A DNA stretch of 30,413 nt. Origin: Micrococcales bacterium (GTDB taxonomy: Bacteria; Actinomycetota; Actinomycetes; S36-B12; UBA5976). Below the pieces are notes generated by a model that did no database searches, was not told the DNA's origin, and saw nothing but the letters and a program-made list of their open reading frames with translations. The stretch covers positions 1 to 30,413 of the forward strand of contig JAHEEQ010000045.1 of NCBI GenBank assembly GCA_024640585.1, given 5' to 3'. The position numbers and the translations under genes are program-made. Positions 14,827 through 25,867 of the stretch are shown here, piece after piece. The first letter of the stretch is position 1; each line of letters opens with the position of its first letter.

Positions 14827-15309
14827 ATGGCATTCAAAAAAGGCGAAACAGTCGTTTACCCACACCACGGCGCTTCAACCATCGTTGATATCTACAAGCA
14901 GACTATTAATGGTCGCGAAATGGAATTCCTGATTTTGAAGGTTCAGCAAAGCGAACTCACCATCGAAGTTCCTTCTGGAAACGCAGAATATGTTGGCGTG
15001 CGCGATGTTGTTAGCAAAGAAGGTCTACAAGATGTGTTTAACATCTTGCGACAGCCGTACATTGAAGAGCCAACAAACTGGTCACGTCGTTACAAAGCAA
15101 ATGTTGAAAAAATCGCTTCAGGCGATGTAATCAAAGTAGCTGAAGTTGTTCGCGATCTTTACCGCCGTCAAGAAGACCGTGGCCTTTCTGCAGGCGAAAA
15201 ACGTATGTTGCAAAAGGCAATCCAAATCTTGAGTTCTGAAGTTGCATTGGCACAGAAGTCTGACGATATTGCCGCAACTGAAAAAATTATGGAAGTACTT
15301 GCTGCATAA
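14827..15309 (+). CDS. carD: RNA polymerase-binding transcription factor CarD
   Basis: CarD binds the RNA polymerase beta subunit and stabilises the open complex, especially at rRNA promoters. The 160 residues contain the Tudor-like RNA polymerase interaction domain ([15 protein letters not shown], 3-17) and the helical DNA-binding domain. Trp85 in [12 protein letters not shown] corresponds to the Trp that wedges the upstream edge of the bubble in mycobacterial Car[21 protein letters not shown] is typical. It heads the core carD-ispD order of actinobacteria; the next gene is the decayed IspD homologue. Confidence 0.96.
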
Positions 15310-15335
15310 CTGCTGCAAGAGTTGAGAGCTGGATT

Positions 15336-15965
15336 ATGGCAACTCAATCTGGACATTCTGTCCACGTAGTAATTGTTGTGGAATCTGAACTTGCGCTTTT
15401 ACCTTTGGGTTCAAGCACAATTGCTGGTACTGCTGTATCTCGCGCCCAGTCTGCAAGTTGTCTTCCAAGTGTAAGTCTGTGGATTCAACCCGCATTGCGT
15501 CCAAAATGGCAAAAGCTAGATCGAAAACTCAGAACTCCTTGTGTTATCGAGACTGCAGAAACGCTTTTTGAGGTTGCAAAGAACTCTTCCGCTGATGTCG
15601 TGATGATCCATGAAGCACAGCGACCTCTAACTTTGAATTCAACCTTTGACAGAGTTGCTTTGGCAATTACAAGTGAAATAACTGCTGCAAGACCTGCACA
15701 TGTTGTGGTGGATACATTAAAAATTGTAGATCACAATCACATAGTTACTGGCACTGTAAATCGAGAACTGGTTCAATCTCTAACTTCACCAGAAGCCTAT
15801 TTGCGTGAAGCAATCACGGGTCACAATGAGAACGGTTGGACATTCACCACAGGTTATGGCTTAAACGAATTGGTTCGAGGGGATCAAGAGTCTCTAAAGG
15901 TGCGCTCGCCAGAAGATGTGCAATTAGTTGAATCATTCTTGGTCTGGCAGACCAAAACAAGTTAG
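15336..15965 (+). CDS. Degenerate IspD-fold protein (probable pseudoenzyme at the native ispD locus)
   Basis: This 209-residue frame sits where ispD lies in other actinobacteria. The middle and C-terminal parts still align with MEP cytidylyltransferase: VVMIHEAQRPLT (89-99, normally HDAARPL), VVDTLKIVD (124-132, normally DTIK), REL..SLTSPEAYL (normally TPQ.F) and SLKVRSPED with Lys188. The N-terminal glycine-rich AAGSGxRLG loop with its Arg and Lys is replaced by VVESELALLPLGSS. The TDD motif reads TTG and the HDAAR Asp is Glu. CTP binding and catalysis are therefore unlikely. The frame is uninterrupted, so it is probably expressed or recently inactivated. The intact paralogue at 16295-17002 may have replaced it. 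Confidence 0.7.
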   Translation: MATQSGHSVHVVIVVESELALLPLGSSTIAGTAVSRAQSASCLPSVSLWIQPALRPKWQKLDRKLRTPCVIETAETLFEVAKNSSADVVMIHEAQRPLTLNSTFDRVALAITSEITAARPAHVVVDTLKIVDHNHIVTGTVNRELVQSLTSPEAYLREAITGHNENGWTFTTGYGLNELVRGDQESLKVRSPEDVQLVESFLVWQTKTS

Positions 15966-16288
15966 TCGTCTTTTGGCTTGCGAAGTTCTTTGGCTTCGTC
16001 AATAAATTTCTTCGGTTGTTTGCGAATTGCTTTAGGTAGTCCAGTAAACAAGTAAAGCGGGTCGGACAAAACGCGTCGTGCGATTCGCCATGGCTTTGTC
16101 GCCAAACGATTTTCTAGATCCTTTACATATTCCTTTCGCAAATCATGAGTGTCATGGCGCATTACTGCACCGCAGGCAGTGCACTTCGCAGTAGCTAGTA
16201 AACGGCCCGCGTAGGTGACTTGGTGTTCGGTTTCACGATTGCACATCGCGCATAACAAAACTGCAAATTGTTTTTGATTATCAGGCAT
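15962..16288 (-). CDS. Zinc-ribbon protein at the end of the PTS operon
   Basis: A 108-residue protein, last of the nine-gene minus-strand operon. Residues 12-40 form a zinc ribbon with two CxxC pairs (LLCAMCNRE and CTACGAV), joined by HQVTYAGRLLATAK. The rest is basic and helical (RKEYVKDLENRLATKPWRIARRVL; PKAIRKQPKKFIDEAKEL). I do not recognise a characterised family; similar short CxxC proteins are annotated only as hypothetical. It starts 6 nt after the cytidylyltransferase stop. Its stop overlaps the degenerate ispD stop (TTAG, 15962-15965). Confidence 0.7.
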   Translation of the reverse strand: MPDNQKQFAVLLCAMCNRETEHQVTYAGRLLATAKCTACGAVMRHDTHDLRKEYVKDLENRLATKPWRIARRVLSDPLYLFTGLPKAIRKQPKKFIDEAKELRKPKDD

Positions 16289-16294
16289 AATGAA

Positions 16295-17002
16295 TCATTT
16301 CAGAATGTAGTTGTTGCTGGCGAGAAGGTGTTCAACCATCACCAGATCTTGCGGATAGGTAACTTTGATGTTTAGTGCGGTTCCACGAACGCATTCAACT
16401 TTCAAATCTGGATAGTACTTTTCCATGCACATTGAAGTATCGCTTCCTTCAAAGTTTTCTAAACCTGCTTTTCGGTAGGCATCGAGAATTTCTTTTGCTT
16501 TGAAGACCTGCGGGGTTTGCACACGCACAATTTCTGCATCATGCGCATTGCCATGCAAAACAGCTGTTTCTAAATACGGAAGTGCACCACCATTGTTTTC
16601 GGCAGCGCGCACAATGTCACGTATTAATTTTGGTCCTGCAAGTGGACGAGCGCCATCGTGAATTAAAACTAGTTTGCAGTCCCCAGATTCGATCGAAGGG
16701 GCAAGAAATTCGAGTGCACGTGATTCAGATGCATGGCGAGATGCTCCGCCATCCACGATGTCGACAGGAACTGGAACATGTTTTGCAAATATTTCGCGAG
16801 CAAATTCGCGTTCGGATTGGTGAACTACTAAAACATATCGGTCGAAGAGTTCGGAGTCGATGAGCCATTTGAAGCTCCAAGTTGCCAATTCGCGTCCTCC
16901 GAGGGGGAGCCAAACTTTGTTGGTTCCCGCCCCAAGACGTGTACCGCTACCAGCAGCAAGAACTACAGCAGTTCGACCAGTCTGGTGGCGATTAAATTTC
17001 AT
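16295..17002 (-). CDS. IspD-family cytidylyltransferase (MEP or polyol-phosphate cytidylyltransferase)
   Basis: The enzyme should transfer CMP from CTP to a polyol phosphate. The 235 residues contain all catalytic landmarks of IspD/TarI: AAGSGTRLG (16-24), Lys29, GGASRHAS (85-92), IHDGARPL (114-121), VQTPQVF (161-167), a SDT in place of TDD (187-189), and NIKVTYPQDL with Lys213. Substrate is uncertain. As IspD it would make CDP-methylerythritol from MEP, as TarI/CrpPA-like it would make CDP-ribitol or a similar CDP-alditol. The gene follows the DXR-like oxidoreductase with a TAATG overlap inside a polyol PTS operon. Since the IspD at 15336 is degenerate, this may be the cell's working IspD. 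Confidence 0.85.
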   Translation of the reverse strand: MKFNRHQTGRTAVVLAAGSGTRLGAGTNKVWLPLGGRELATWSFKWLIDSELFDRYVLVVHQSEREFAREIFAKHVPVPVDIVDGGASRHASESRALEFLAPSIESGDCKLVLIHDGARPLAGPKLIRDIVRAAENNGGALPYLETAVLHGNAHDAEIVRVQTPQVFKAKEILDAYRKAGLENFEGSDTSMCMEKYYPDLKVECVRGTALNIKVTYPQDLVMVEHLLASNNYILK

Positions 17003-18282
17003 TACAGTCCTAAAGCATCCATCTCATTACGGAGAGCAACGATAGTTTGTGTTTCGTCAATATCCACATCGTCCCAAGTGATTAGGTGGTCGATTGGCAA
17101 ATCGCGTTTAACTGTCGCTCCCTGAAGAAGGCCGATTGGAACCAAATTGTCCCGCTTTGCATCTTCTTTACGATCAGCAACTGCGCGCATTGAGTAGCCG
17201 CCAATGCTGTCGATTTTGTCACCAACAGCATGTGCCTTCTTGGTTGAAGCCACAACTTCAGTCATGCGAGAAGTGCATGCGAATGAAGCTTTGCCTTCAA
17301 CCAGCATTTCAGCAACTGTGATAGGAGCCTCAACACTTGCTAGGTGGTATGGACGGTAAAGCGAGAAATAAGGACCAGGTCCCATCCCCAAGTAGGACAT
17401 TTCATGTGCGACGTATGGCTTGTCGGTTTTAACGACAACGAAAACTCCAGGTGCAACATCGCCAGTGCAGTAATCAACCACACCAGTTTCTTCCAAAACC
17501 CCACCGGCTTCAGTTGGTGCGAAAACATTGTGAAGTGTTTTAACTGTTGCAGCAGGTCCAATCATTCCGCGCTTGGTTAGTTGTAAACCAGTTGCATTTG
17601 CAAGTGCTGACATTTCAATCATAGTCTTTGAACCATCAGTGAATGAGCAAAGCATTTTTGGATTCATTTGCTTTTGCGCCGCGCGTTCTGCAACTGTGTC
17701 TGGGTTTGAGTGTGGTTCGAATGGGTTGTTCTTACCTTTACCGGCCATCACGATTTCGAAAGAAAGATCACGTGCAAATTCAACGAGGTAAAGAGCTTCA
17801 ACCGGTTCGTCACCATGACAAACTGAATAAAGAACACCATTGTCGGCAGCCATCTTTGTAAGTAGTGGCCCAATAGTCACGTCCATCTCAACATTCAAAA
17901 CTGCAACATGCTTCTTTGCCTTTAGGCAAGCAGAAGTTACGCGTGCACCAATTTCTGGAACACCAGTAGCCTCAACAACTACATCTACATCAAGCTGCGC
18001 AATCAAGGTAGCGTCAGTGGTGCCAACTGGTTGACCCATTGCAATAGCAGCGTTTAGTGCTGCAACATCGGATGAAACTAGAGGTTTTGCAAGACCAAGG
18101 TCTAGGAAAGCTTGTTCAATTCGGGTTGCGTCGATATCTGCAATCACTGAAACATCAATACCGCCCATTGATTGAGTCTGGTTTGCAAACCCACGGCCCA
18201 TTTGGCCAGATCCAACTAGTGCTAGACGGCTATTTCTACCTTGCTTACGTGCGAGCTCTTCTAAACGTCCGCGGTATTCCAT
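17002..18282 (-). CDS. SAF-domain NAD(P)-dependent oxidoreductase, COG4091 / DXR-like (DRL) family
   Basis: A 426-residue oxidoreductase with an N-terminal Rossmann domain (LALVGSGQMGRGF, 20-32; VDVVVEATGVPEIGA), a homoserine-dehydrogenase-like middle domain (GKGKNNPFEPHSNPD; DGSKTMIEMSALANATGL; GPYFSLYRPYHL) and a C-terminal SAF domain (from about 345, with VPIGLLQGATVKRDLP). This is the COG4091 architecture. The Brucella abortus member DRL converts deoxyxylulose 5-phosphate to MEP, replacing DXR; other members have no known substrate. In this operon it occupies the place of the sorbitol-6-phosphate dehydrogenase of E. coli srl. A good ribosome site (AAGGAG, 9 nt) precedes the ATG. The substrate is probably a phosphorylated polyol or ketose. 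Confidence 0.83.
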   Translation of the reverse strand: MEYRGRLEELARKQGRNSRLALVGSGQMGRGFANQTQSMGGIDVSVIADIDATRIEQAFLDLGLAKPLVSSDVAALNAAIAMGQPVGTTDATLIAQLDVDVVVEATGVPEIGARVTSACLKAKKHVAVLNVEMDVTIGPLLTKMAADNGVLYSVCHGDEPVEALYLVEFARDLSFEIVMAGKGKNNPFEPHSNPDTVAERAAQKQMNPKMLCSFTDGSKTMIEMSALANATGLQLTKRGMIGPAATVKTLHNVFAPTEAGGVLEETGVVDYCTGDVAPGVFVVVKTDKPYVAHEMSYLGMGPGPYFSLYRPYHLASVEAPITVAEMLVEGKASFACTSRMTEVVASTKKAHAVGDKIDSIGGYSMRAVADRKEDAKRDNLVPIGLLQGATVKRDLPIDHLITWDDVDIDETQTIVALRNEMDALGL

Positions 18283-18284
18283 TT

Positions 18285-18650
18285 CTACTTGCTCCTTGTA
18301 ATCTTAATTTTCGTTCCGATGTTAATTTCTGGTAATTCTTGTACCGCGATGTTTACATCGCCTGGTAATTCAGCGGTTGTCAAACCATTTGCTTTTAGGT
18401 TTAAGTGACCTAAGTTCATTAAGTTTTCATTTGCCACATCGCCAACTGCAAGAACTTCAAATGAAGCATCGTCGATTGTGACTACGTCACCAGCTTTTAA
18501 TGCGTCTTCTTGATGTTCAACGTTGTGCAGGATGCAAAAATCGTGTAGTTCTTCTGGAGCGTTTGCGCCGAAGAAAACCAGCATCCCTTGTTCCCGAAAA
18601 GCAGGAACAAGGTCGCCGATTGCGAAAACTGTTGTTTCGTAAATATTCAC
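18285..18650 (-). CDS. srlB: PTS glucitol/sorbitol-family EIIA component
   Basis: The soluble EIIA takes phosphate from HPr and passes it to EIIB. The 121 residues match EIIA-Gut: YETTVFAIGDL at the start, DFCILHNVEH with the likely phospho-histidine His42, LAVGDVANENLMNLGHLNLKANGL and the C-terminal INIGTKIKI. GTG at 18650 is preferred over TTG at 18656 because AGG lies 9 nt upstream of it. It follows EIIB closely and is followed 2 nt later by the oxidoreductase. srlB is used for family membership, not for proven sorbitol specificity. Confidence 0.88.
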   Translation of the reverse strand: MNIYETTVFAIGDLVPAFREQGMLVFFGANAPEELHDFCILHNVEHQEDALKAGDVVTIDDASFEVLAVGDVANENLMNLGHLNLKANGLTTAELPGDVNIAVQELPEINIGTKIKITRSK

Positions 18651-18660
18651 TCGCAATTAC

Positions 18661-19032
18661 CTATGCGAGGGTAATGTTTTCTGGTTTAACACCAGAAACA
18701 AATAGTTCTGCAGTGATAAACATTGCGAGTGGACCAGCAGGGCTAGTTGCGTGAATGTCCACGGTTGGAACTTTCTTCATTGGGTAAACGCCAACGCGTG
18801 CAGTTCCGCCACAGTCAATAACTGCAACAGCGATTTTGTCGAATGGTGCACTGCTCTTGAAGCCATCAAATGGCTCGCCGCCAGTCAGTTCTGCAATATG
18901 TGCAGCGACAGCGTGAATGCCGCCACCTGTTACACAGTAGATAAGTGGGCGAGCATCTGTTGGAGTGATCTTTAGAGGTCCGCCCCAGCCACCTTTACCT
19001 GCAATGATATTTACTGCTTTGTAGTCAGCCAT
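18661..19032 (-). CDS. PTS glucitol/sorbitol-family EIIB component (separate protein)
   Basis: This 123-residue protein equals the N-terminal EIIB domain of E. coli SrlE. It keeps GKGGWGGPLKI (12-22) and the phospho-cysteine motif VIDCGGTARVGVYP with Cys74, and ends VSGVKPENITLA like the E. coli domain boundary. It receives phosphate from EIIA and gives it to the incoming polyol. In E. coli EIIB is fused in front of EIIC2; here it is a free protein encoded after EIIC2. AAGG precedes the ATG by 10 nt. A strong GC-rich hairpin lies upstream in the 72-nt gap. Confidence 0.9.
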   Translation of the reverse strand: MADYKAVNIIAGKGGWGGPLKITPTDARPLIYCVTGGGIHAVAAHIAELTGGEPFDGFKSSAPFDKIAVAVIDCGGTARVGVYPMKKVPTVDIHATSPAGPLAMFITAELFVSGVKPENITLA

Positions 19033-19104: not shown

Positions 19105-19647
19105 TTAGTTGTTGTACAGGCCGAAGCTTGCGAAGTACGCAATGACCACAGAAAGTGGACCGGTAATCAAACGCGAGAACAAAACGGCTGGAACGCCAAC
19201 TTCAACGGTTTCTGGTTCGGCTTCACCAAGAGCAAGGCCAACCGGAATGAAGTCACAACCAACTTGTGGGTTGATTGCAAACAAAGCAGGAAGTGCATAG
19301 CTAGCAGGGATGGTTCCCTTACCAATTTCAACACCTAGCAATGTTCCAACGATTTGCGCAATAACAGCGCCAGGTCCAAGCAATGGGCTTAGAACTGGAA
19401 TAGCACAAACGATGGAAACAAGAATCAAGCCACCAAGTGAAGAAGCTGATCCACTGATTGCATTAGCAATCTTTTCGCCAACACCAGTTGCAAGAATCAA
19501 ACCGATGATGAATGAAATGAATGCCATGAAAGGAATTACGTTACGGATTGTTGTGTCAACCGCATCGCGACCTGCTTGGTAAAGGGTGCCAACGACACCA
19601 CCGACAGAACGACCAATCTTTACAAGAAGTGCGTTTAGTGCGTCCAT
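19105..19647 (-). CDS. PTS glucitol/sorbitol-family EIIC2 component (separate protein)
   Basis: A 180-residue membrane protein equal to the C-terminal EIIC2 part of E. coli SrlE. Features are an amphipathic N-terminus (LVKIGRSVGGVVGTLYQAGRD), IRNVIPFMAFISFIIGLIL, ILVSIVCAIPVLSPLLGPGA and the polar loop FAINPQVGCDFIPVGLALGEAEPETVEVG in pieces typical of this family. The start at 19647 is chosen because AAGGAG lies 10 nt upstream; the ATG at 19656 is only 1 nt from that site and overlaps the EIIC gene. Together with EIIC it forms the transport channel. Confidence 0.88.
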   Translation of the reverse strand: MDALNALLVKIGRSVGGVVGTLYQAGRDAVDTTIRNVIPFMAFISFIIGLILATGVGEKIANAISGSASSLGGLILVSIVCAIPVLSPLLGPGAVIAQIVGTLLGVEIGKGTIPASYALPALFAINPQVGCDFIPVGLALGEAEPETVEVGVPAVLFSRLITGPLSVVIAYFASFGLYNN

Positions 19648-19648
19648 G

Positions 19649-20185
19649 TTATGCATTCTCCTTACGGGAAATCATCACTTTAGTGATGAACTCAGTGACG
19701 ATACCGCGGATGAAAATGACTACAAGACCTACAAGTAGGTAACGGATAGCCAAAGGTCCTTGTTCGTAACCAAGTGTTGTTATACCTGATGCAATACCTG
19801 CCCATACGAAAAGTTCGCCTGGGTTAGCATGCGGGAAAATGCCAAGAATTGGATGTACGAAAGAAACTGCAGCATCGTAAAACGCTGGCTTCTGACGTTC
19901 TGGCAAGAAACGACCAACGGTGTAAGCCATTGGGTTTGTAAAGAAGAATACTGCCAAGAATGGCAATACCATGTAGCGAACTGGGTACCACTGGATACCT
20001 GGTTGCGCTGCTTTGACGCCTAGGCTTTCAATCTTCTCTGGTCCGATAAGACGGATCAATGCGTTCACTGCGGTCAAAAGAACCACAAGTGTTGGCAAGA
20101 TGCCACCCATCAGGCTAAGAAGAACCTGGCCACCTTGGTTGAAGACTCCAATGAAGTCTTGCGCCCAAACGGCTAGTGTGTCCAT
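19649..20185 (-). CDS. srlA: PTS glucitol/sorbitol-family EIIC component
   Basis: A 178-residue membrane protein homologous to SrlA. Hydrophobic segments include VLLSLMGGILPTLVVLLTAVNAL and YMVLPFLAVFFFTNPMAYTVG; the family motifs FTNPMAYTVGRFLPERQKPAFYD and HPILGIFPHANPGELFVW are clear. It imports a polyol with coupled phosphorylation by EIIB. GGAGG lies 4 nt upstream of the ATG. The 82-nt gap to gutM holds several inverted repeats. No EI gene of the PTS is in the window; HPr is at 25066. Confidence 0.9.
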   Translation of the reverse strand: MDTLAVWAQDFIGVFNQGGQVLLSLMGGILPTLVVLLTAVNALIRLIGPEKIESLGVKAAQPGIQWYPVRYMVLPFLAVFFFTNPMAYTVGRFLPERQKPAFYDAAVSFVHPILGIFPHANPGELFVWAGIASGITTLGYEQGPLAIRYLLVGLVVIFIRGIVTEFITKVMISRKENA

Positions 20186-20267: not shown

Positions 20268-20660
20268 TTACTCCGGAACTGAAGTTTCCTTCGGTTTCAG
20301 CAAAGTAGAAGCCGCCATCTGAGCCGCACTTCTAACTTTTCGACTTAACTGAGGGATGTCACCATCTCCAGCTAATTCGGTTAGTGAAAGTCCTTTTAGT
20401 GCAGGGAATGGCTTGGGACCTGCGAAGACTGTAAATCCAGTCATAACTCGCGCATCAACCACAGTTTCTCCCTGGCGTGCAATTGCAACAAATGCGCGAC
20501 CACCACGGTAGCGCTTTCCACCCATACCAATTGCGGATTCGCCTTGGGCGCGCAATTCTTTAAGTGAATCGTTGAATTTCATTGCTTGTTTGTATGTCAA
20601 AATTAATTGTGCAAACCAAGTTATTCCAATAAGAATAAATACGAGTGGCAAGTTTTCCAT
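20268..20660 (-). CDS. gutM: GutM-type glucitol operon activator
   Basis: A 130-residue protein with one N-terminal membrane helix (LPLVFILIGITWFAQLILTY, 4-23) and a cytoplasmic domain with the GutM pattern LKELRAQGESAIGMGGKRYRGGRAFVAIA (in parts 34-63), VVDARVMTGFTVFA and FPALKGLSL. E. coli GutM activates the srl operon and many glucitol PTS operons carry a copy. Its start overlaps the stop of the SorC-type regulator (TAATG), so both regulators are made together. Confidence 0.9.
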   Translation of the reverse strand: MENLPLVFILIGITWFAQLILTYKQAMKFNDSLKELRAQGESAIGMGGKRYRGGRAFVAIARQGETVVDARVMTGFTVFAGPKPFPALKGLSLTELAGDGDIPQLSRKVRSAAQMAASTLLKPKETSVPE

Positions 20661-21634
20661 TATGACGCCACCTTAGCCTGTTTTGTTGCTGAAAGTATTC
20701 GAATAATCTCAAAAGCGCATGAACTGCTAATGATTACTTCGGAAACAAAGCCACCACGAATTGCGCCAATCACACCGCGTGCTTTGTCAGCACCGGCTGC
20801 CATGCCAATAACAAATGGAATGCGACGTAATTGTTCGAGACTTAGGCCAACAATTCGATCGCTCCAACCATGATCAAGTTCTTTGCCATTGATGTCATAG
20901 AAACGTGCGCCGATGTCGCCAGCCATTTCTTTGGTAAGTGCATCGTATTGAGCATCTGGCAGTCCAGCGCTATGTAGCAATTCCATGGAAGAAGAAGCAC
21001 CTTTGCTACCAATTCCCACGACAGCTAGTTCTGCATTTGCAGCTTGTGTTAAAACATCAGAAACTGAAGGTTCGTTGATAAATGCTTTATGCGCTTCAGA
21101 ACTTCGAACCACTACTGGTGCGAGCAATGTTGAAAAAGTTGCACCCATTTTGCTTGCCATCGAGCGAATCAAATCTTCACCGCTGCTACCTGTTGCAAGT
21201 GCGGTCATACCTCCGACAAGTGGAACGAGTCGAATGCCTGGCTGGTAGTCAGCGTCAAGTGCATTGACCATTGCTTGCAAAGTAGATCCCCAGCTAACAG
21301 AGATTGTTGTGTTTGGGCGAGTGCGTTCTACAAGTGCTTCTGCACCAAGCGCACCAACACCAGTGAATTCATCAAGCTTGTTTAAAGTTCGAGCGACGCG
21401 GATGTTTTTTACTGGAAGTAGTTCGCGGATAGCTTTTTCAAGTGCTGCATCGCGATTAGCTTGTTCTACGATTTTGATCTGGACGATTCCTTGGGCGCGA
21501 GCATCGGTGAGCATGCGGGAAACATTTGACCGGCTCACACCTAGATTCTCAGCAATTTCATCCTGAGACATCTCATCTTCGTAATAGAGGCGCGCTGCTT
21601 TTACGAGCAGTGCTCTATCGCGAGGAAGGGCCAT
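20660..21634 (-). CDS. SorC/DeoR-type sugar-binding transcriptional regulator
   Basis: This regulator probably controls the polyol operon in response to a phosphorylated sugar. The protein has an N-terminal HTH (DEMSQDEIAENLGVSRSNVSRML, in two parts near residues 20-42) and a SorC effector domain with GVGALGAEAL, TISVSWGSTLQAMV, LVPLVGG and AVVGIGSKGASSS. The C-terminal phosphosugar isomerase-like fold is complete. ATG at 21634 is preferred; a GTG at 21640 would add two residues. It is first in the nine-gene operon, behind a predicted promoter (21715-21743) and an inverted repeat at 21677-21692. Confidence 0.9.
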   Translation of the reverse strand: MALPRDRALLVKAARLYYEDEMSQDEIAENLGVSRSNVSRMLTDARAQGIVQIKIVEQANRDAALEKAIRELLPVKNIRVARTLNKLDEFTGVGALGAEALVERTRPNTTISVSWGSTLQAMVNALDADYQPGIRLVPLVGGMTALATGSSGEDLIRSMASKMGATFSTLLAPVVVRSSEAHKAFINEPSVSDVLTQAANAELAVVGIGSKGASSSMELLHSAGLPDAQYDALTKEMAGDIGARFYDINGKELDHGWSDRIVGLSLEQLRRIPFVIGMAAGADKARGVIGAIRGGFVSEVIISSSCAFEIIRILSATKQAKVAS

Positions 21635-21676
21635 CGTCACATCCGTTCAGGTATCGGAACTTTTGACCAAGTTTGG

Positions 21677-21820: not shown

Positions 21821-22936
21821 TTAGCCCAGTTCGCGTACGAACCTTTGGACTAGGAGCGCAACATCAGCCGGGTCTGCCAAGCGATGGTCGGCAATAACAG
21901 TGATGTACAAAGTTTGATCTGCTGCTTGCTGACCAATTGAAAGTGCAACCGGCTGTGGCTTAATCAAGATACCTGCTGCCGCTACAACTGCAGAATCACT
22001 GGCATCAACTAAACCCGTTGTGCTTGATGTCAGATATTCGATTGCAATATGACCTTTTGCAGCATTTGCAATGATGTCTTTCAACTTCGCAGCAAAATCT
22101 GGCGTAGGACTTGCAGATACTGGAACTACTGGAGTTACCACACCATGAGCTGCCATCACACTGAATGCAATTTTCACTTCACCAAAACTTTGTGGTGCAC
22201 CGTTGTTCCAATTTGCATGAAGTTCTGGATGTGCGGTCAGTGCTCGCGCCCAAGCAGTTGCGATTTTTACAAGTCGATCTGTTTTGTCACTTGGCAACCA
22301 AGAAACTTTTTGGGCAAAAGTCATAGAAAAAGCTGGAATATCTGCTGATGCTGCAATTGCTTTGGCGATTGCAAGTCGAGTCTTCAAACGCTTTTCTAAT
22401 GTTCGTTCTTGACTGAGTGCAGAATTTGCTAGATTTTCAACATCATTGTGCTTAATTACTCCGCCTGCACCAGTTCCTGGCACTGTTGCGAGATCTACAT
22501 TTAGATCACGAGCAACTGCACGTGCTTTAGGAGTTGCCAAAATGTCACCAGTGTTAACGACAGGATTTGCAAGAGGTGCTAAAACTTGTGGAGCAACTGG
22601 TTGAGGTGCTTCAACAACTTGTGCCGCTACAACAGGTGTTTCAACTGCCGGAGCTGCAGCAGGTGCATCAAAAATTCCAGCCAGTAAATCTTCTTCTTCT
22701 GATTCCACCATTACAAGTGGTGCACCAACATCAAGGACATCTCCAGGATTGCCGTGCAAGGAAATAACTTTTCCGCTCGCTGTCGCTTCTACTTCCATAT
22801 CAATTTTGTCAGTTGCAACTTCGCAAACAACATCGCCAGCTTTGATTTCTTGACCAACTTGCACGTTCCATGTTAGAAGTTCGCCTTCTGTCATTGTCAT
22901 TGACATTTTCGGCATAACGATTGCTACTTGTGGCAT
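21821..22936 (-). CDS. 2-oxo acid dehydrogenase E2 (dihydrolipoamide acyltransferase)
   Basis: E2 carries the lipoyl arm and transfers the acyl group to CoA. The 371 residues show a lipoyl domain (1-80) with the lipoylation Lys44 in VATDKIDMEVEA, an Ala/Pro/Val linker (90-130), a peripheral subunit-binding domain (131-168, ILATPKARAVARDLNVDL and GTGAGGVIKHNDVEN) and a catalytic domain (about 180-371). The active-site motif usually reads DHRxxDG; here it is DHRLADP (350-356), keeping His351 and Asp355 but with Pro for Gly. It overlaps the E1 beta stop by TAATG. A terminator follows. No E3 gene is in the window. Pyruvate or acetoin are likely substrates. Confidence 0.88.
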   Translation of the reverse strand: MPQVAIVMPKMSMTMTEGELLTWNVQVGQEIKAGDVVCEVATDKIDMEVEATASGKVISLHGNPGDVLDVGAPLVMVESEEEDLLAGIFDAPAAAPAVETPVVAAQVVEAPQPVAPQVLAPLANPVVNTGDILATPKARAVARDLNVDLATVPGTGAGGVIKHNDVENLANSALSQERTLEKRLKTRLAIAKAIAASADIPAFSMTFAQKVSWLPSDKTDRLVKIATAWARALTAHPELHANWNNGAPQSFGEVKIAFSVMAAHGVVTPVVPVSASPTPDFAAKLKDIIANAAKGHIAIEYLTSSTTGLVDASDSAVVAAAGILIKPQPVALSIGQQAADQTLYITVIADHRLADPADVALLVQRFVRELG

Positions 22937-23925
22937 TACGGCTCCCGAATTAAATCTTCAACGGCTTGAATAATGTTTGGAATTTGTGGAACCACAGACT
23001 TTTCAAGTTGCGGCGCATATGGGATAGGAATATCCAAACCGCACAGACGCTTGATTGGTGCAACAAGCGAGTACAGGCTTTTGCTTTCAGCCAAACGCGC
23101 AGAAACTTCCGCCATAAATCCAACATGCTTCGGAGCTTCTTGCACCAAAAGAATTCGACCAGTTGCGCGAACTGCTTCTTCGATTGGCTCCATGTCGAGT
23201 GGCGACAAAGTGCGAACGTCGATCACAGTTGCTTCAATTCCCTTTTCGGAAAGTGCTGCAGCAGCTTCGAGGGAACGCGAAACCATTACACCAGTTGCAA
23301 CAATGACAAGGTCTTTACCTTCGCGTGCAACATGTGATTTTCCAATCGGAGTGCGAATTGCTTCTTCAGTTACAGGACCAGAAGTTTTGTACAGCAGTTT
23401 ATGTTCCAAAACTAAAACTGGATTTGGATCATCAATCGCAGAAAGCAACAAGCCTTTTGCATCTTGCGCAGTGGCTGGCATGACAACTTTCAAACCAGGC
23501 ACATGCGCAAACCAAGCTTCAAGACTTTGTGAATGTTGTGCCGCGGCTCCAGTTCCAGAACCGAGTGGCGCACGCAAAACCATTGGCACGCTAAGTTCAC
23601 CACCAAGCATGAAGTGAATTTTTGCGGCTTGATTGACAATTTGATCCATTGCTTGTGCAGTGAAGTCAGAGAACTGAATTTCAACGATTGGTTTCATGCC
23701 TACTAGTGCAGCACCAACTGCAGCGCCAACAATTCCAAGTTCTGAAATCGGAGTATCGCGAATGCGTTCTGCACCAAAGCGGTGGTAGAGATCGCCGGAT
23801 ACACCAAAAGCTCCGCCATAAATTCCGATGTCTTCACCCAACATAAACACATTTGGATCGGCTTCCATTGCTTGGCCAATTGCTTCGCGAATTGCTTCGG
23901 AATAAGTGATGATGCGGTCAGTCAT
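22936..23925 (-). CDS. Pyruvate/acetoin dehydrogenase E1 component, beta subunit
   Basis: The 329-residue beta subunit forms the thiamine diphosphate enzyme with the alpha subunit encoded just upstream. Family motifs include ITYSEAIREAI, VFMLGEDIGIYGGAFGVSGDL (in two parts near 26-46), RDTPISELGIVGAAVGAAL, VEIQFSDF and VLRAPLGSGTGAAAQHSQSLEAWFAHVPGLKVV (split across 116-148). The transketolase C-terminal domain follows (VIDVRTLSPLDMEPI). Start and stop overlap the neighbours by 1 nt. The alpha/beta split is the acetoin-dehydrogenase or Gram-positive PDH type. Confidence 0.92.
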   Translation of the reverse strand: MTDRIITYSEAIREAIGQAMEADPNVFMLGEDIGIYGGAFGVSGDLYHRFGAERIRDTPISELGIVGAAVGAALVGMKPIVEIQFSDFTAQAMDQIVNQAAKIHFMLGGELSVPMVLRAPLGSGTGAAAQHSQSLEAWFAHVPGLKVVMPATAQDAKGLLLSAIDDPNPVLVLEHKLLYKTSGPVTEEAIRTPIGKSHVAREGKDLVIVATGVMVSRSLEAAAALSEKGIEATVIDVRTLSPLDMEPIEEAVRATGRILLVQEAPKHVGFMAEVSARLAESKSLYSLVAPIKRLCGLDIPIPYAPQLEKSVVPQIPNIIQAVEDLIREP

Positions 23926-24947
23926 TAGTTACCACCTTGAATTGCGCGGTAAACACTTGAAAGAAGTTCCGCTGGATCTGAATCTGGAGCAGTTGTTGCT
24001 TCTTGAATCGCAACGCGGGTTTTTTCACGAGTTTCTGCTGCAATTGCATCGCAATCTTCGCGAGTTAAAACACCTTGTTCTATTACACGATTTTCAAATT
24101 TAACAATTGGATCTTTGTGTTTCCAATCCTCAATTTCTTCTTTCGTGCGATACAGGTTCTTGTCGCTCTTTGAGTGACCTTTCCAACGGTAGGTGATGTT
24201 TTCTACAAGTGTTGGACCATGTCCTTGACGTGCACGTTGAACAGCTTCGTGGCAAGCTGCATAAACAGCATCAGCGTCATTGCCTTCTACTGTGATACCA
24301 GGAATGCCGTAGGCTGCTGCGCGATCTGAAATATTTTCAACTTTCATACTTTTCTCAGTTGAGAAAGACATCCCATATTTATTGTTTTCGCAAACAAAAA
24401 TCACTGGCAAATCCCAAATCGCTGCAAGGTTGACAGCTTCGTGGAATGCGCCTTCGTTAGTTGCACCATCACCGAAGAAACACATCACAACGCGATCGGT
24501 GCCCTTCATTTTTTGTGCAAGCGCAGCCCCTGCAGCTATTGGAATTCCACCAGCAACAATTCCGTTTGCACCAAGATTTCCGGTTGTTGCATCTGCAATG
24601 TGCATCGATCCACCACGACCTCGGCAATAACCAGTCTGCTTTGCAAGCAGTTCTGCCATCATGCGAGTTAGGTCTGCACCTTTTCCAATGCAATGACCAT
24701 GACCGCGGTGAGTTGAAGTAATGAAGTCTGTATTTTCAAGAGCAGCACAAGCGCCAATCGCGCTCGCTTCTTGACCAATCGAAAGGTGCATCGTTCCGTG
24801 CATTAGGCCTCGTGCAAAAAGGCTGTCGACTGCTTCTTCAAAAAGTCGCACAGCCCACATACCTGCCAATGTGGTGCGAGCAGAGTCTGCAGACTGACTT
24901 AAAGGGGAGCCGTTGTGACCAAAAAGTGGGCTAATCGTGTTTGCCAT
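23925..24947 (-). CDS. Pyruvate/acetoin dehydrogenase E1 component, alpha subunit
   Basis: This thiamine-diphosphate subunit decarboxylates a 2-oxo acid or cleaves acetoin. The 340 residues contain [15 protein letters not shown] (79-93), [14 protein letters not shown] (106-119), [16 protein letters not shown] (125-140) and the cofactor motif from GDGATNEG (159) to ENN (187-189). The GGSMHIAD and LGANGIV segments resemble AcoA-type proteins as much as PDH E1 alpha. AGGAGA precedes the ATG at 24947. It is the first gene of the minus-strand E1 alpha-E1 beta-E2 operon and diverges from HPr. The exact substrate is not settled by sequence. Confidence 0.92.
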
Positions 24948-25065: not shown

Positions 25066-25338
25066 ATGGAATTCGATGCAGTTGTAGTTTCACCTGTCGG
25101 CTTACATGCCCGCCCGGCTGCCTTGTTTGTTAAAAAGGTTGCAGCTTCTGGACTTAAAGTTACTGTGAGTCCGATTGTTGACGGAGCAGTTACGGCTACC
25201 GCAGATGCCAAAAGTATTTTGAGTGTACTTGCACTTGGGATCAAGAGCGGTCAAACCGTTCGCGTGGTCATCGAAGGCGAAAACCCAGATACTTTGGCAG
25301 CAGAATTGCAAGAAATTCTCGCTGATCCTGAAGGTTAA
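25066..25338 (+). CDS. ptsH: Phosphocarrier protein HPr
   Basis: HPr carries phosphate from enzyme I to sugar-specific EIIA proteins, here presumably to the glucitol-family EIIA at 18285. The 90 residues contain the active-site loop VVSPVGLHARPAALF with phospho-histidine His14 and the regulatory-site region DAKSILSVLALGI with Ser50 at the place of Ser46. The protein is complete and of normal length. It lies at the right edge of the insertion between ispD and ispF and is transcribed away from the E1 alpha gene. Enzyme I is not in the window. Confidence 0.95.
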   Translation: MEFDAVVVSPVGLHARPAALFVKKVAASGLKVTVSPIVDGAVTATADAKSILSVLALGIKSGQTVRVVIEGENPDTLAAELQEILADPEG

Positions 25339-25378: not shown

Positions 25379-25867
25379 ATGCAAAATCGCTCACAAATTC
25401 GAACTGGCATCGGCACAGATGTGCACGCATTTGATGCCCAAAGCCCGCTTTGGCTTGGGCTTATCGAATGGCCGGGTGAAGTTGGTTTGGCAGGACACTC
25501 GGATGGCGATGTTGTTGCGCACGCAATCTGCGATTCGCTATTTAGCGCAACCGGCACGGGCGACATGGGCTCAAATTTCGGAACCGAGCGACCAGAGTTT
25601 CTAAATGCCTCAGGTGAAACTTTCCTGAAAGCGGCAGTGCAAATTATTAGTGACGCTGGTTTTGTTCCAGTAAATGTTTCGGTCAATGTGATTGGAAACA
25701 AACCAAAGATTTCTGCACGTCGAACTGAAATGCAAGATGCAATTTCTAAAATTTTGGAAGTGCCAGTTTCCATCTCAGGCACAACTACTGATGGGCTTGG
25801 ATTAACAGGCCGTGGCGAAGGCATTGCTGCAATTGCAACAGCATTAGTTGAAAAGAGAGGTGCGTAA
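25379..25867 (+). CDS. ispF: 2-C-methyl-D-erythritol 2,4-cyclodiphosphate synthase (IspF)
   Basis: IspF converts CDP-methylerythritol 2-phosphate to the cyclodiphosphate in the MEP isoprenoid pathway. The 162 residues show the zinc ligands Asp14 and His16 (GIGTDVHAF) and His48 (GDVVAHAICDSLF), plus GHSDGD, GDMGSNFG and the C-terminal TTTDGLGLTGRGEGIAAIA. In most actinobacteria it directly follows or is fused to ispD; here 9.4 kb intervenes. cysS starts 2 nt behind its stop. Confidence 0.95.
   Translation: MQNRSQIRTGIGTDVHAFDAQSPLWLGLIEWPGEVGLAGHSDGDVVAHAICDSLFSATGTGDMGSNFGTERPEFLNASGETFLKAAVQIISDAGFVPVNVSVNVIGNKPKISARRTEMQDAISKILEVPVSISGTTTDGLGLTGRGEGIAAIATALVEKRGA

Follow-up and report, generated by a model that had tools for sequence, protein, structure and literature searches.

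A candidate methylerythritol phosphate branch embedded in a glucitol-type phosphotransferase operon of freshwater actinobacteria

Isoprenoids are molecules that every cell needs. Several enzymes related to the proteins considered here have been described in the 2-C-methyl-D-erythritol 4-phosphate (MEP) pathway. Structure 3upy is that of Brucella abortus DXR-II, in which Thr229, Lys191, and Lys193 anchor fosmidomycin (PMC3847144). Thr229 is invariant and is one of the sites that distinguish DXR-II from two related families, for which four representatives gave no complementation; His250 and Val351 are typical of most DXR-II enzymes, with reported exceptions (PMC3847144). In IspD, CTP has been placed at the P-loop (PMC5099578), MEP binds on a β-arm that also joins the dimer (PMC11770629), and the hydroxyls of methylerythritol have been located at Thr140 (PMC3111433). 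Of 181 Dxs-less species, some probably use an alternative to Dxs (PMC10663253). Here, we analyze a stretch of 30,413 nucleotides (the window) from contig JAHEEQ010000045.1 of a freshwater actinobacterium, whose nearest proteins came from metagenomes and Actinomycetota metagenome-assembled genomes (MAGs). In this window, genes for a DXR-like oxidoreductase (DRL) and an island IspD (iIspD) lie in an operon for a glucitol-type phosphotransferase system (PTS), and we conclude that the pair very probably constitutes the MEP branch of this lineage, replacing DXR-I and the native IspD.

By sequence, the window DRL is a DXR-II. It scored 218.5 bits with the Pfam DRL_cat model, and its only Protein Data Bank relatives at E <= 0.001 were the oxidoreductase entries 3upy and 3upl (E 8e-86, residues 13-423). 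The Lys191, Lys193, and Thr229 anchors of the known DXR-II substrate pocket were retained, as were Gly121 and Arg320. The Lys-Lys-Thr set was also present in most of 125 aligned DRL rows, a set that includes the window and some repeated genomes; Klenkia has Ala229. Full-length DRLs were obtained from 76 of 80 loci, on which the residue-class and neighbor counts rest, and comprised 54 K-K-T proteins, 2 K-K-A proteins, and 20 with other letters. All 20 of the latter fell on one side of a branch of the DRL tree with a Shimodaira-Hasegawa-like approximate likelihood-ratio (SH-aLRT) support of 100. In the same tree, Bartonella DXR-II grouped with DRLs from plasmid operons of Rhizobium and Aminobacter (SH-aLRT 99; tree root not fixed), as if it had come from a catabolic operon in a recruitment separate from that in actinobacteria. 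The Bartonella genome contained DXS, and no DXR-I was found in it. Both Klenkia loci (L008, L009) have the Thr229-to-Ala change, and the L009 cluster lies between ispF and cysS, beside carD.

Genome-level statements rest on relatives. The nearest is G153, whose DRL shared 96% identity with that of the window across the compared part. Among 166 genomes of the G002 order, 142 contained DXR-I and 5 contained DRL; DXR-I was present in none of the 5 DRL genomes, as against 142 of the 161 that were DRL-free (Fisher 4e-5). In 251 genomes from the order of G003, 199 contained DXR-I and 36 contained DRL, with DXR-I in 2 of 36 DRL genomes versus 197 of 215 DRL-free genomes (Fisher 2e-26). Absence of DXR-I here means that a genome was not among the matches listed. 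The two DRL genomes with DXR-I matches were G235, where the match was full length, and G423, which had fragments of both genes. IspH was present in 37 of the 41 DRL genomes of both orders. Genome G188, in which the DRL contig makes up 1.43 Mb of about 1.4 Mb, encoded DRL, DXS, and IspH, and no DXR-I was found; G153 had no DXS, and no DXR-I among the matches listed. This mutual exclusion argues that DRL most likely carries out the DXR step in these actinobacterial lineages.

The iIspD protein gave 128 bits with the Pfam IspD model (cut-off 27), and its AlphaFold2 model (mean predicted local distance difference test score, pLDDT, 87) had IspD 5ddv as the best structural match. Motifs LAAGxGxR, HDGAR, TPQ, and NxKxT were kept, with NK in place of PK, and the P-loop signature LAAGxGxR..NK was invariant in 32 aligned rows. 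More distant operon-linked copies varied, with LASG or LAGG in some, no NK in Actinomarina, and a DTxK arm in Levyella. Genes of the iIspD type occurred in 17 of 20 genomes searched (G002-G012, G014-G016, and G018-G020; two copies in G010), and in none of these 17 did we find a further IspD whose P-loop is intact. Canonical IspD was present in G001 (Aquiluna) and G017 (a Bacillota MAG), which have no iIspD, and G013 gave weak IspD matches only, of which the one read was GlmU-like by eye. Weak IspD matches in long frames (44 bits or less) were not counted. Second IspD matches in iIspD genomes were of three kinds, namely a lake-type native IspD (nIspD; G002-G007), carD-linked natives in four Pseudonocardiaceae (G010, G011, G012, and G014), and short remnants before ispF (G016, G019, and G020). 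Every second copy that was read had no intact P-loop, including the nearly full-length native of G010, and no second match was found in Klenkia (G008 and G009), G015, or G018. A replacement MEP branch, one reading of the preliminary description of this DNA, was thus supported by relatives lacking DXR-I (5 of 5 and 34 of 36 DRL genomes) and a second P-loop IspD (17 of 17).

The same description had called the native IspD decayed. Its nucleotide loop is indeed lost, but we ruled out a decaying pseudogene, as the open reading frame (ORF) is intact, conserved in 50 relatives, and evolving with a ratio of nonsynonymous to synonymous rates (dN/dS) of 0.29. These relatives ranged from 131 to 218 residues (47 of them 193-218), and Asp126, Thr127, Lys129, Thr140, and Arg143 of the arm were invariant in 31 aligned rows. 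Against G153, 86% of residues were identical over 42 codons with synonymous sites saturated; the dN/dS value came from 200 codons compared with L002. Judged from these alignments, nIspD is a conserved P-loop-less IspD paralogue. Its structure model was only moderate (pLDDT 76), so our account of the arm stays at the level of sequence. Because iIspD has lost the arm and nIspD the P-loop, a mixed dimer is suggested, and the two may pair as a split heterodimeric enzyme. Klenkia, which has iIspD and gave no native IspD match, speaks against an obligate pair.

The gene set lies on the minus strand between the CarD-like gene and native ispD on one side (14827-15965) and ispF on the other (from 25379). 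Its order is SorC-type regulator, GutM, EIIC, EIIC2, EIIB, EIIA, DRL, iIspD, and a small CxxC protein, with E1α, E1β, and E2 genes upstream of the regulator; the HPr gene is on the strand opposite to the rest of the island. The preliminary description was accurate about the immediate surroundings. The DRL (426 residues) and iIspD (235 residues) frames overlap by TAATG and follow EIIA after a gap of 2 bases, the glucitol-type PTS context was found by profile, ispF (25379-25867) scored above its equivalog cut-off just outside the island, and no sorbitol-6-phosphate dehydrogenase was detected among the 25 window ORFs scanned by profile. The set proved larger than the two-gene pair first noticed, as it also contains HPr (25066-25338) and the E2, E1β, and E1α genes (21821-24947). 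No TarJ-like or teichoic-type gene was found among the 25 scanned ORFs, the remaining ORFs being unscanned, and no known RNA family reached gathering scores in the window. The small CxxC...CxxC protein accompanies iIspD in Klenkia, Amycolatopsis, Pseudonocardia, and the lake lineages. We take the gene at 14827..15309 to be CarD-like.

Table 1. Features of the DRL-IspD island and its flanks, in window coordinates
Feature	Position	Strand	Evidence
DRL, type II DXR-like oxidoreductase with DXR-II signature K191/K193/T229 (Brucella numbering)	17002..18282	-	PF21135, 3upy/3upl match, residues, tree
Island IspD (iIspD), MEP cytidylyltransferase family; PK to NK variant, short β-arm	16295..17002	-	PF01128, TIGR00453, AlphaFold2 model
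Small CxxC...CxxC protein, zinc-ribbon-like by eye	15962..16288	-	Recurs behind iIspD; no Pfam match over cut-off
Native IspD remnant (nIspD), without P-loop, MEP-binding arm retained	15336..15965	+	PF01128 49.5 bits, residues 83-202
Glucitol-type PTS EIIA	18285..18656	-	PF03829 122 bits
Glucitol-type PTS EIIB (N-terminal part of SrlE)	18661..19032	-	PF03612 167 bits
Glucitol-type PTS EIIC2 (C-terminal part of SrlE)	19105..19656	-	PF07663 162 bits
Glucitol-type PTS EIIC (SrlA)	19649..20185	-	PF03608 241 bits; NF049923 over cut-off
GutM-like protein	20268..20660	-	PF06923 69 bits
Sugar-binding transcriptional regulator (SorC/DeoR type)	20660..21640	-	PF04198 168 bits
E2 acyltransferase: lipoyl, E3-binding, divergent catalytic domain	21821..22936	-	PF00364, PF02817, PF00198 41.5 bits
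E1 beta	22936..23925	-	PF02779, PF02780; PRK09212 over cut-off
E1 alpha	23925..24947	-	PF00676 323 bits; TIGR03182 365.5, cut-off 393.9; loop GHSKSDK
HPr of PTS	25066..25338	+	PF00381 73 bits
ispF, island flank	25379..25867	+	TIGR00151 157 bits, over equivalog cut-off
CarD-like gene, other island flank	14827..15309	+	Recurs beside nIspD or IspF in relatives; no NCBIfam match

Parts of this arrangement recur at many loci where DRL carries the DXR-II signature. Within 8 kb of 56 K-K-T/A loci, we found PTS genes at 24, E1αβ at 28, both at 21, an FGGY kinase at 14, and iIspD at 20. A PTS, E1, or FGGY kinase gene was present at 44 of these 56 loci versus 0 of the 20 loci of other DRL classes, which likewise had no iIspD within that distance (0 of 20). 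These neighbor counts are lower bounds, as some loci end at contig ends; they come from tblastn of the 80 loci with window proteins only, which misses other neighbors, and selected loci were also read by ORF. E1αβ near DRL recurs across phyla, and nearly every locus of sufficient length has E2 together with E1. On plasmids, a DRL-E1α-E1β-E2 block stands behind a glucitol PTS that comes with an EI of its own (Rhizobium B230/85), beside a glucitol PTS (Terrarubrum), behind an ABC (ATP-binding cassette) transporter and sugar kinase and before lpdA and a class II aldolase gene (R. sophoriradicis), or among ABC transporters (Aminobacter). In Priestia, E1-E2-lpdA, a major facilitator superfamily transporter, DRL, and an FGGY kinase fall within about 13 kb, with a PTS also among the supply genes. 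Supply genes vary among plasmids, and DRL, E1α, E1β, and E2 recur; such diversity of uptake genes around a constant core argues for a polyol phosphate as the compound that the core acts on. DRL rows without a PTS were scattered among rows with one in the DRL tree, a pattern that fits repeated loss of PTS and E1 with DRL and iIspD staying.

Other DRL neighborhoods were also noted. The E1 genes of the plasmid operons carry mostly generic names. In Clostridia, Calditrichota, and Planctomycetota (L021-L027, L033, and L037), DRL lies in a second type of neighborhood with various subsets, assigned by eye and not by profile, of genes for a SIS-domain protein, a zinc alcohol dehydrogenase, a FucI-like protein, an FGGY kinase, and an ABC transporter. 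Actinomarina-type marine genomes (L042 and L044; 7.7-15.9 kb) carry, by eye, a PTS EI-like gene, IspD, and DRL, followed by a mannitol-type PTS, an MtlD-like gene, and HPr; in these two, no E1 was found within 8 kb and no full DXS match was found. A gene of the transaldolase/FSA type lies near DRL in L. salivarius (L084, annotated) and Levyella (L048, by eye).

The island E1α proteins share a loop that sets them apart. The sequence GHS[KR]SD was present in 36 of 36 island E1α proteins and in 1 of 23 non-island ones; the window protein has GHSKSDK where human pyruvate dehydrogenase (PDH) has GHSMSDP, and it scored below the PDH E1 cut-off (TIGR03182, 365.5 versus 393.9 bits). L059 was counted as island despite a partial DRL, L175 was left out of the loop count because it repeats L018, and L011_18268, near a DRL, was counted as non-island from its sequence and place in the tree. 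Island rows clustered in the E1α tree, where the 37 rows (L175 included) need two changes and a C. difficile row is nested. That row, the sole non-island protein with the loop (L156), comes from a plasmid operon containing a sugar-binding regulator, E1 (GHSKSD), E2, lpdA, a sigma-54 regulator, and another PTS, with no DRL in the stretch; the operon is possibly a 1-deoxyketose route. The island loop also differs from that of rows with GHFEGD, which we take to be of the acetoin dehydrogenase type. Acetoin dehydrogenase was considered from the name of an H57 record and rejected, as the H57 E1 is far from the island E1 on the tree. 1-Deoxy-D-xylulose 5-phosphate (DXP) is an acyloin like acetoin, and its cleavage to acetyl-CoA and glyceraldehyde 3-phosphate would be chemically natural. 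We infer that the two extra basic residues of the loop would suit a phosphorylated substrate such as DXP.

DXS itself is often absent when the PTS is present. DXS scored over the cut-off in 21 of the 41 DRL genomes of the two orders, and it was absent from 15 of 22 genomes with a PTS beside DRL versus 0 of 9 without (Fisher p 8e-4). The DRL locus was scored in 34 of the 41 genomes, with three unclear loci excluded (G153 and G400, DXS absent; G227, DXS present); the seven without a locus or with a cut locus were G204, G352, G363, G411, G007, and G251, which have DXS (G251 in pieces), and G423, which does not. In the 251-genome sample, DXS was absent from 14 of 20 genomes with glucitol-type EII genes (EII-GUT) versus 16 of 231 without (p 1e-10); among those 16, G292, G400, and G423 are DRL genomes with cut contigs. 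DXS was called absent if the best E value exceeded 1e-50, as E1β and a probable split transketolase give weaker matches; those of the probable transketolase occur even where DXS is complete (G003 and G006). Absence of DXS needs at least six changes on the DRL tree and therefore was not one event. G227 has HPr, E1, and E2 beside DRL, no EII genes, and DXS in two contig pieces, and the short contig of G251 carries a regulator and DRL but no EII; both weakly favor import over E1 as the compensating part. Beyond the two orders, DXS was not found in 11 of 35 DRL genomes, mostly drafts, with a broken partial match in G432. Two Bacillota drafts (L018/G017 and L046/G447) have DXR-I and a DRL-PTS locus and gave no full DXS match.

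The genome comparison supports replacement of DXR-I and IspD, co-inheritance of PTS, DRL, and E1, and absence of DXS in many island carriers. The explanation that we favor, with moderate confidence, is an operon all of whose parts fit MEP and DXP. Its glucitol-type PTS, which includes a separate HPr, would import 2-C-methyl-D-erythritol and deliver MEP, DRL would interconvert MEP and DXP, E1αβ/E2 would split DXP into acetyl-CoA and glyceraldehyde 3-phosphate or run the carboligation back to DXP, and IspD would draw MEP toward isoprenoids. The direction of flux is one that we infer. The co-inherited E1αβ/E2 and the DXS pattern favor a methylerythritol/deoxyxylulose substrate over sorbitol; the PTS-fed polyol phosphate of the preliminary description stands in part. 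Whether E1 acts on DXP is finely balanced in our judgment, and the assignment of 2-C-methyl-D-erythritol as the PTS sugar is plausible but tentative. A fuller scheme, which we regard as rather doubtful, is that imported methylerythritol serves as a ready-made precursor while DRL, with an E1/E2 specific for DXP, burns any excess or replenishes DXP, making DXS and DXR-I dispensable and providing one of the alternatives to Dxs, perhaps together with an iIspD-nIspD heterodimer. Under that scheme, some lake actinobacteria would scavenge the isoprenoid precursor much like a vitamin.

Several observations weigh against the MEP/DXP operon or the roles of its parts. The window DRL has Ile for His250 and Met for Val351. 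The iIspD protein scored 151 bits with the NCBIfam equivalog TIGR00453, below the cut-off of 181.3, and its β-arm is shortened, without DTxK...DR. G235 combines DRL with a full-length DXR-I, 7 of 22 PTS-bearing DRL genomes retain DXS, 7% of genomes without EII-GUT (16 of 231) also have no DXS, and the relatives' genomes are mostly drafts. Finally, L. salivarius has DRL and a PTS with fsa and tkt, and Listeria has only DRL, a regulator, and a PTS, neither with E1 within 10 kb, which makes other branched polyols possible. A reading in which DRL acts on the phosphate of such a polyol (a hydroxymethyl-branched tetritol, for instance), with IspD as a passenger, draws support from DRL loci of Clostridia and others that contain FGGY kinase, SIS, and FucI-like genes and from the fsa and tkt neighbors in L. 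salivarius. We consider this quite improbable, because it accounts neither for the exclusion of DXR-I and the sole-IspD status in relatives nor for an acetyl-CoA-type E1/E2, which fits a methyl ketose.

Alternatively, the island E1 might make DXP from pyruvate and glyceraldehyde 3-phosphate as a stand-in for DXS, with DRL and IspD acting next and the PTS polyol unrelated. A mutant E. coli PDH E1 yields DXP in vivo in amounts that can replace DXS, and the paper reporting this states that PDH forms 1-deoxyxylulose and cites a 1986 title on 1-deoxyketoses from PDH and acetoin dehydrogenase (PMC3424233); the 181 Dxs-less species are described as an open question (PMC10663253). Moreover, among scored loci every loss of DXS was in a PTS carrier, and PTS carriers also have E1 wherever the contig extends far enough to tell. 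We nevertheless think this route unlikely, since E2 accompanies E1 in nearly all sufficiently long loci, implying acyl transfer to CoA, and since G227, with HPr, E1, and E2 but no EII, retains DXS, one case that favors import over E1. The preliminary description had also raised activation of a polyol phosphate to a CDP-polyol for a cell-surface polymer, as by TarJ-TarI. IspD and TarI share a fold and the PTS would supply the polyol phosphate, but iIspD scored 73.5 bits with the TarI model (cut-off 166) versus 151 with that for IspD, DRL matches DXR-II and not TarJ, and no TarJ or teichoic gene occurred among the 25 ORFs scanned. With IspF in the window, IspH in 37 of 41 relatives, and no other P-loop IspD in the 17 iIspD genomes, this reading is very improbable, and we set it aside in favor of the MEP/DXP operon.

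If methylerythritol, which is known from plants and from isoprene-derived aerosol, is the imported sugar, then it serves microbes both as a nutrient and as a source of isoprenoids, with a candidate transporter, oxidoisomerase, and cleaving enzyme in the island. A split IspD, if true, would add a new architecture for an enzyme that is targeted by drugs and herbicides. The island is also a concrete genetic candidate for how bacteria with the MEP pathway and without Dxs make precursors (PMC10663253), and a catabolic or salvage role is a possible reason why bacteria with DXR-I or mevalonate enzymes keep an active DXR-II (PMC3847144). Among the open-access PMC papers that our searches listed, no title or abstract described a PTS that takes up methylerythritol, catabolism of this compound, or an operon joining DRL, PTS, and E1, subscription journals being unsearched. 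All parts belong to known families; in the same listed papers, we saw no account of their combination, of the link to DXS loss, of the E1 signature, or of the split IspD pair.

Compared with described systems, the window DRL resembles Brucella DXR-II (3upl, 3upy) in full-length homology, the DRL_cat domain, Lys191/Lys193/Thr229, and Arg320, and its type appears to replace DXR-I in relatives; it differs in having neither His250 nor Val351 and in being embedded in a PTS/E1 operon beside its own IspD. The iIspD protein has the fold of IspD, with LAAGxGxR, HDxAR, TPQ, and NxKxT, and is the only P-loop IspD found in relatives, whereas PK is replaced by NK, the β-arm is shortened, and the score falls below the equivalog cut-off. 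Glucitol/sorbitol (gut/srl) systems share EIIA, EIIB, EIIC, EIIC2, and GutM with the island, which by contrast has split EIIB and EIIC2, a SorC-type regulator, its own HPr, and DRL in place of sorbitol-6-phosphate dehydrogenase, of which none was seen. PDH and acetoin dehydrogenase complexes have the same E1α, E1β, and E2 genes and domains, but the island E1α carries GHS[KR]SD rather than GHSMSDP or GHFEGD and forms a separate cluster, and the catalytic domain of E2 is divergent (41.5 bits). Lastly, as in the Dxs-less bacteria (PMC10663253), DXS was not found here and the lower MEP genes (IspD, IspF, and IspH) are kept; unlike in that report, there is here a candidate cause, the PTS-DRL-E1 island, that is statistically tied to DXS loss.

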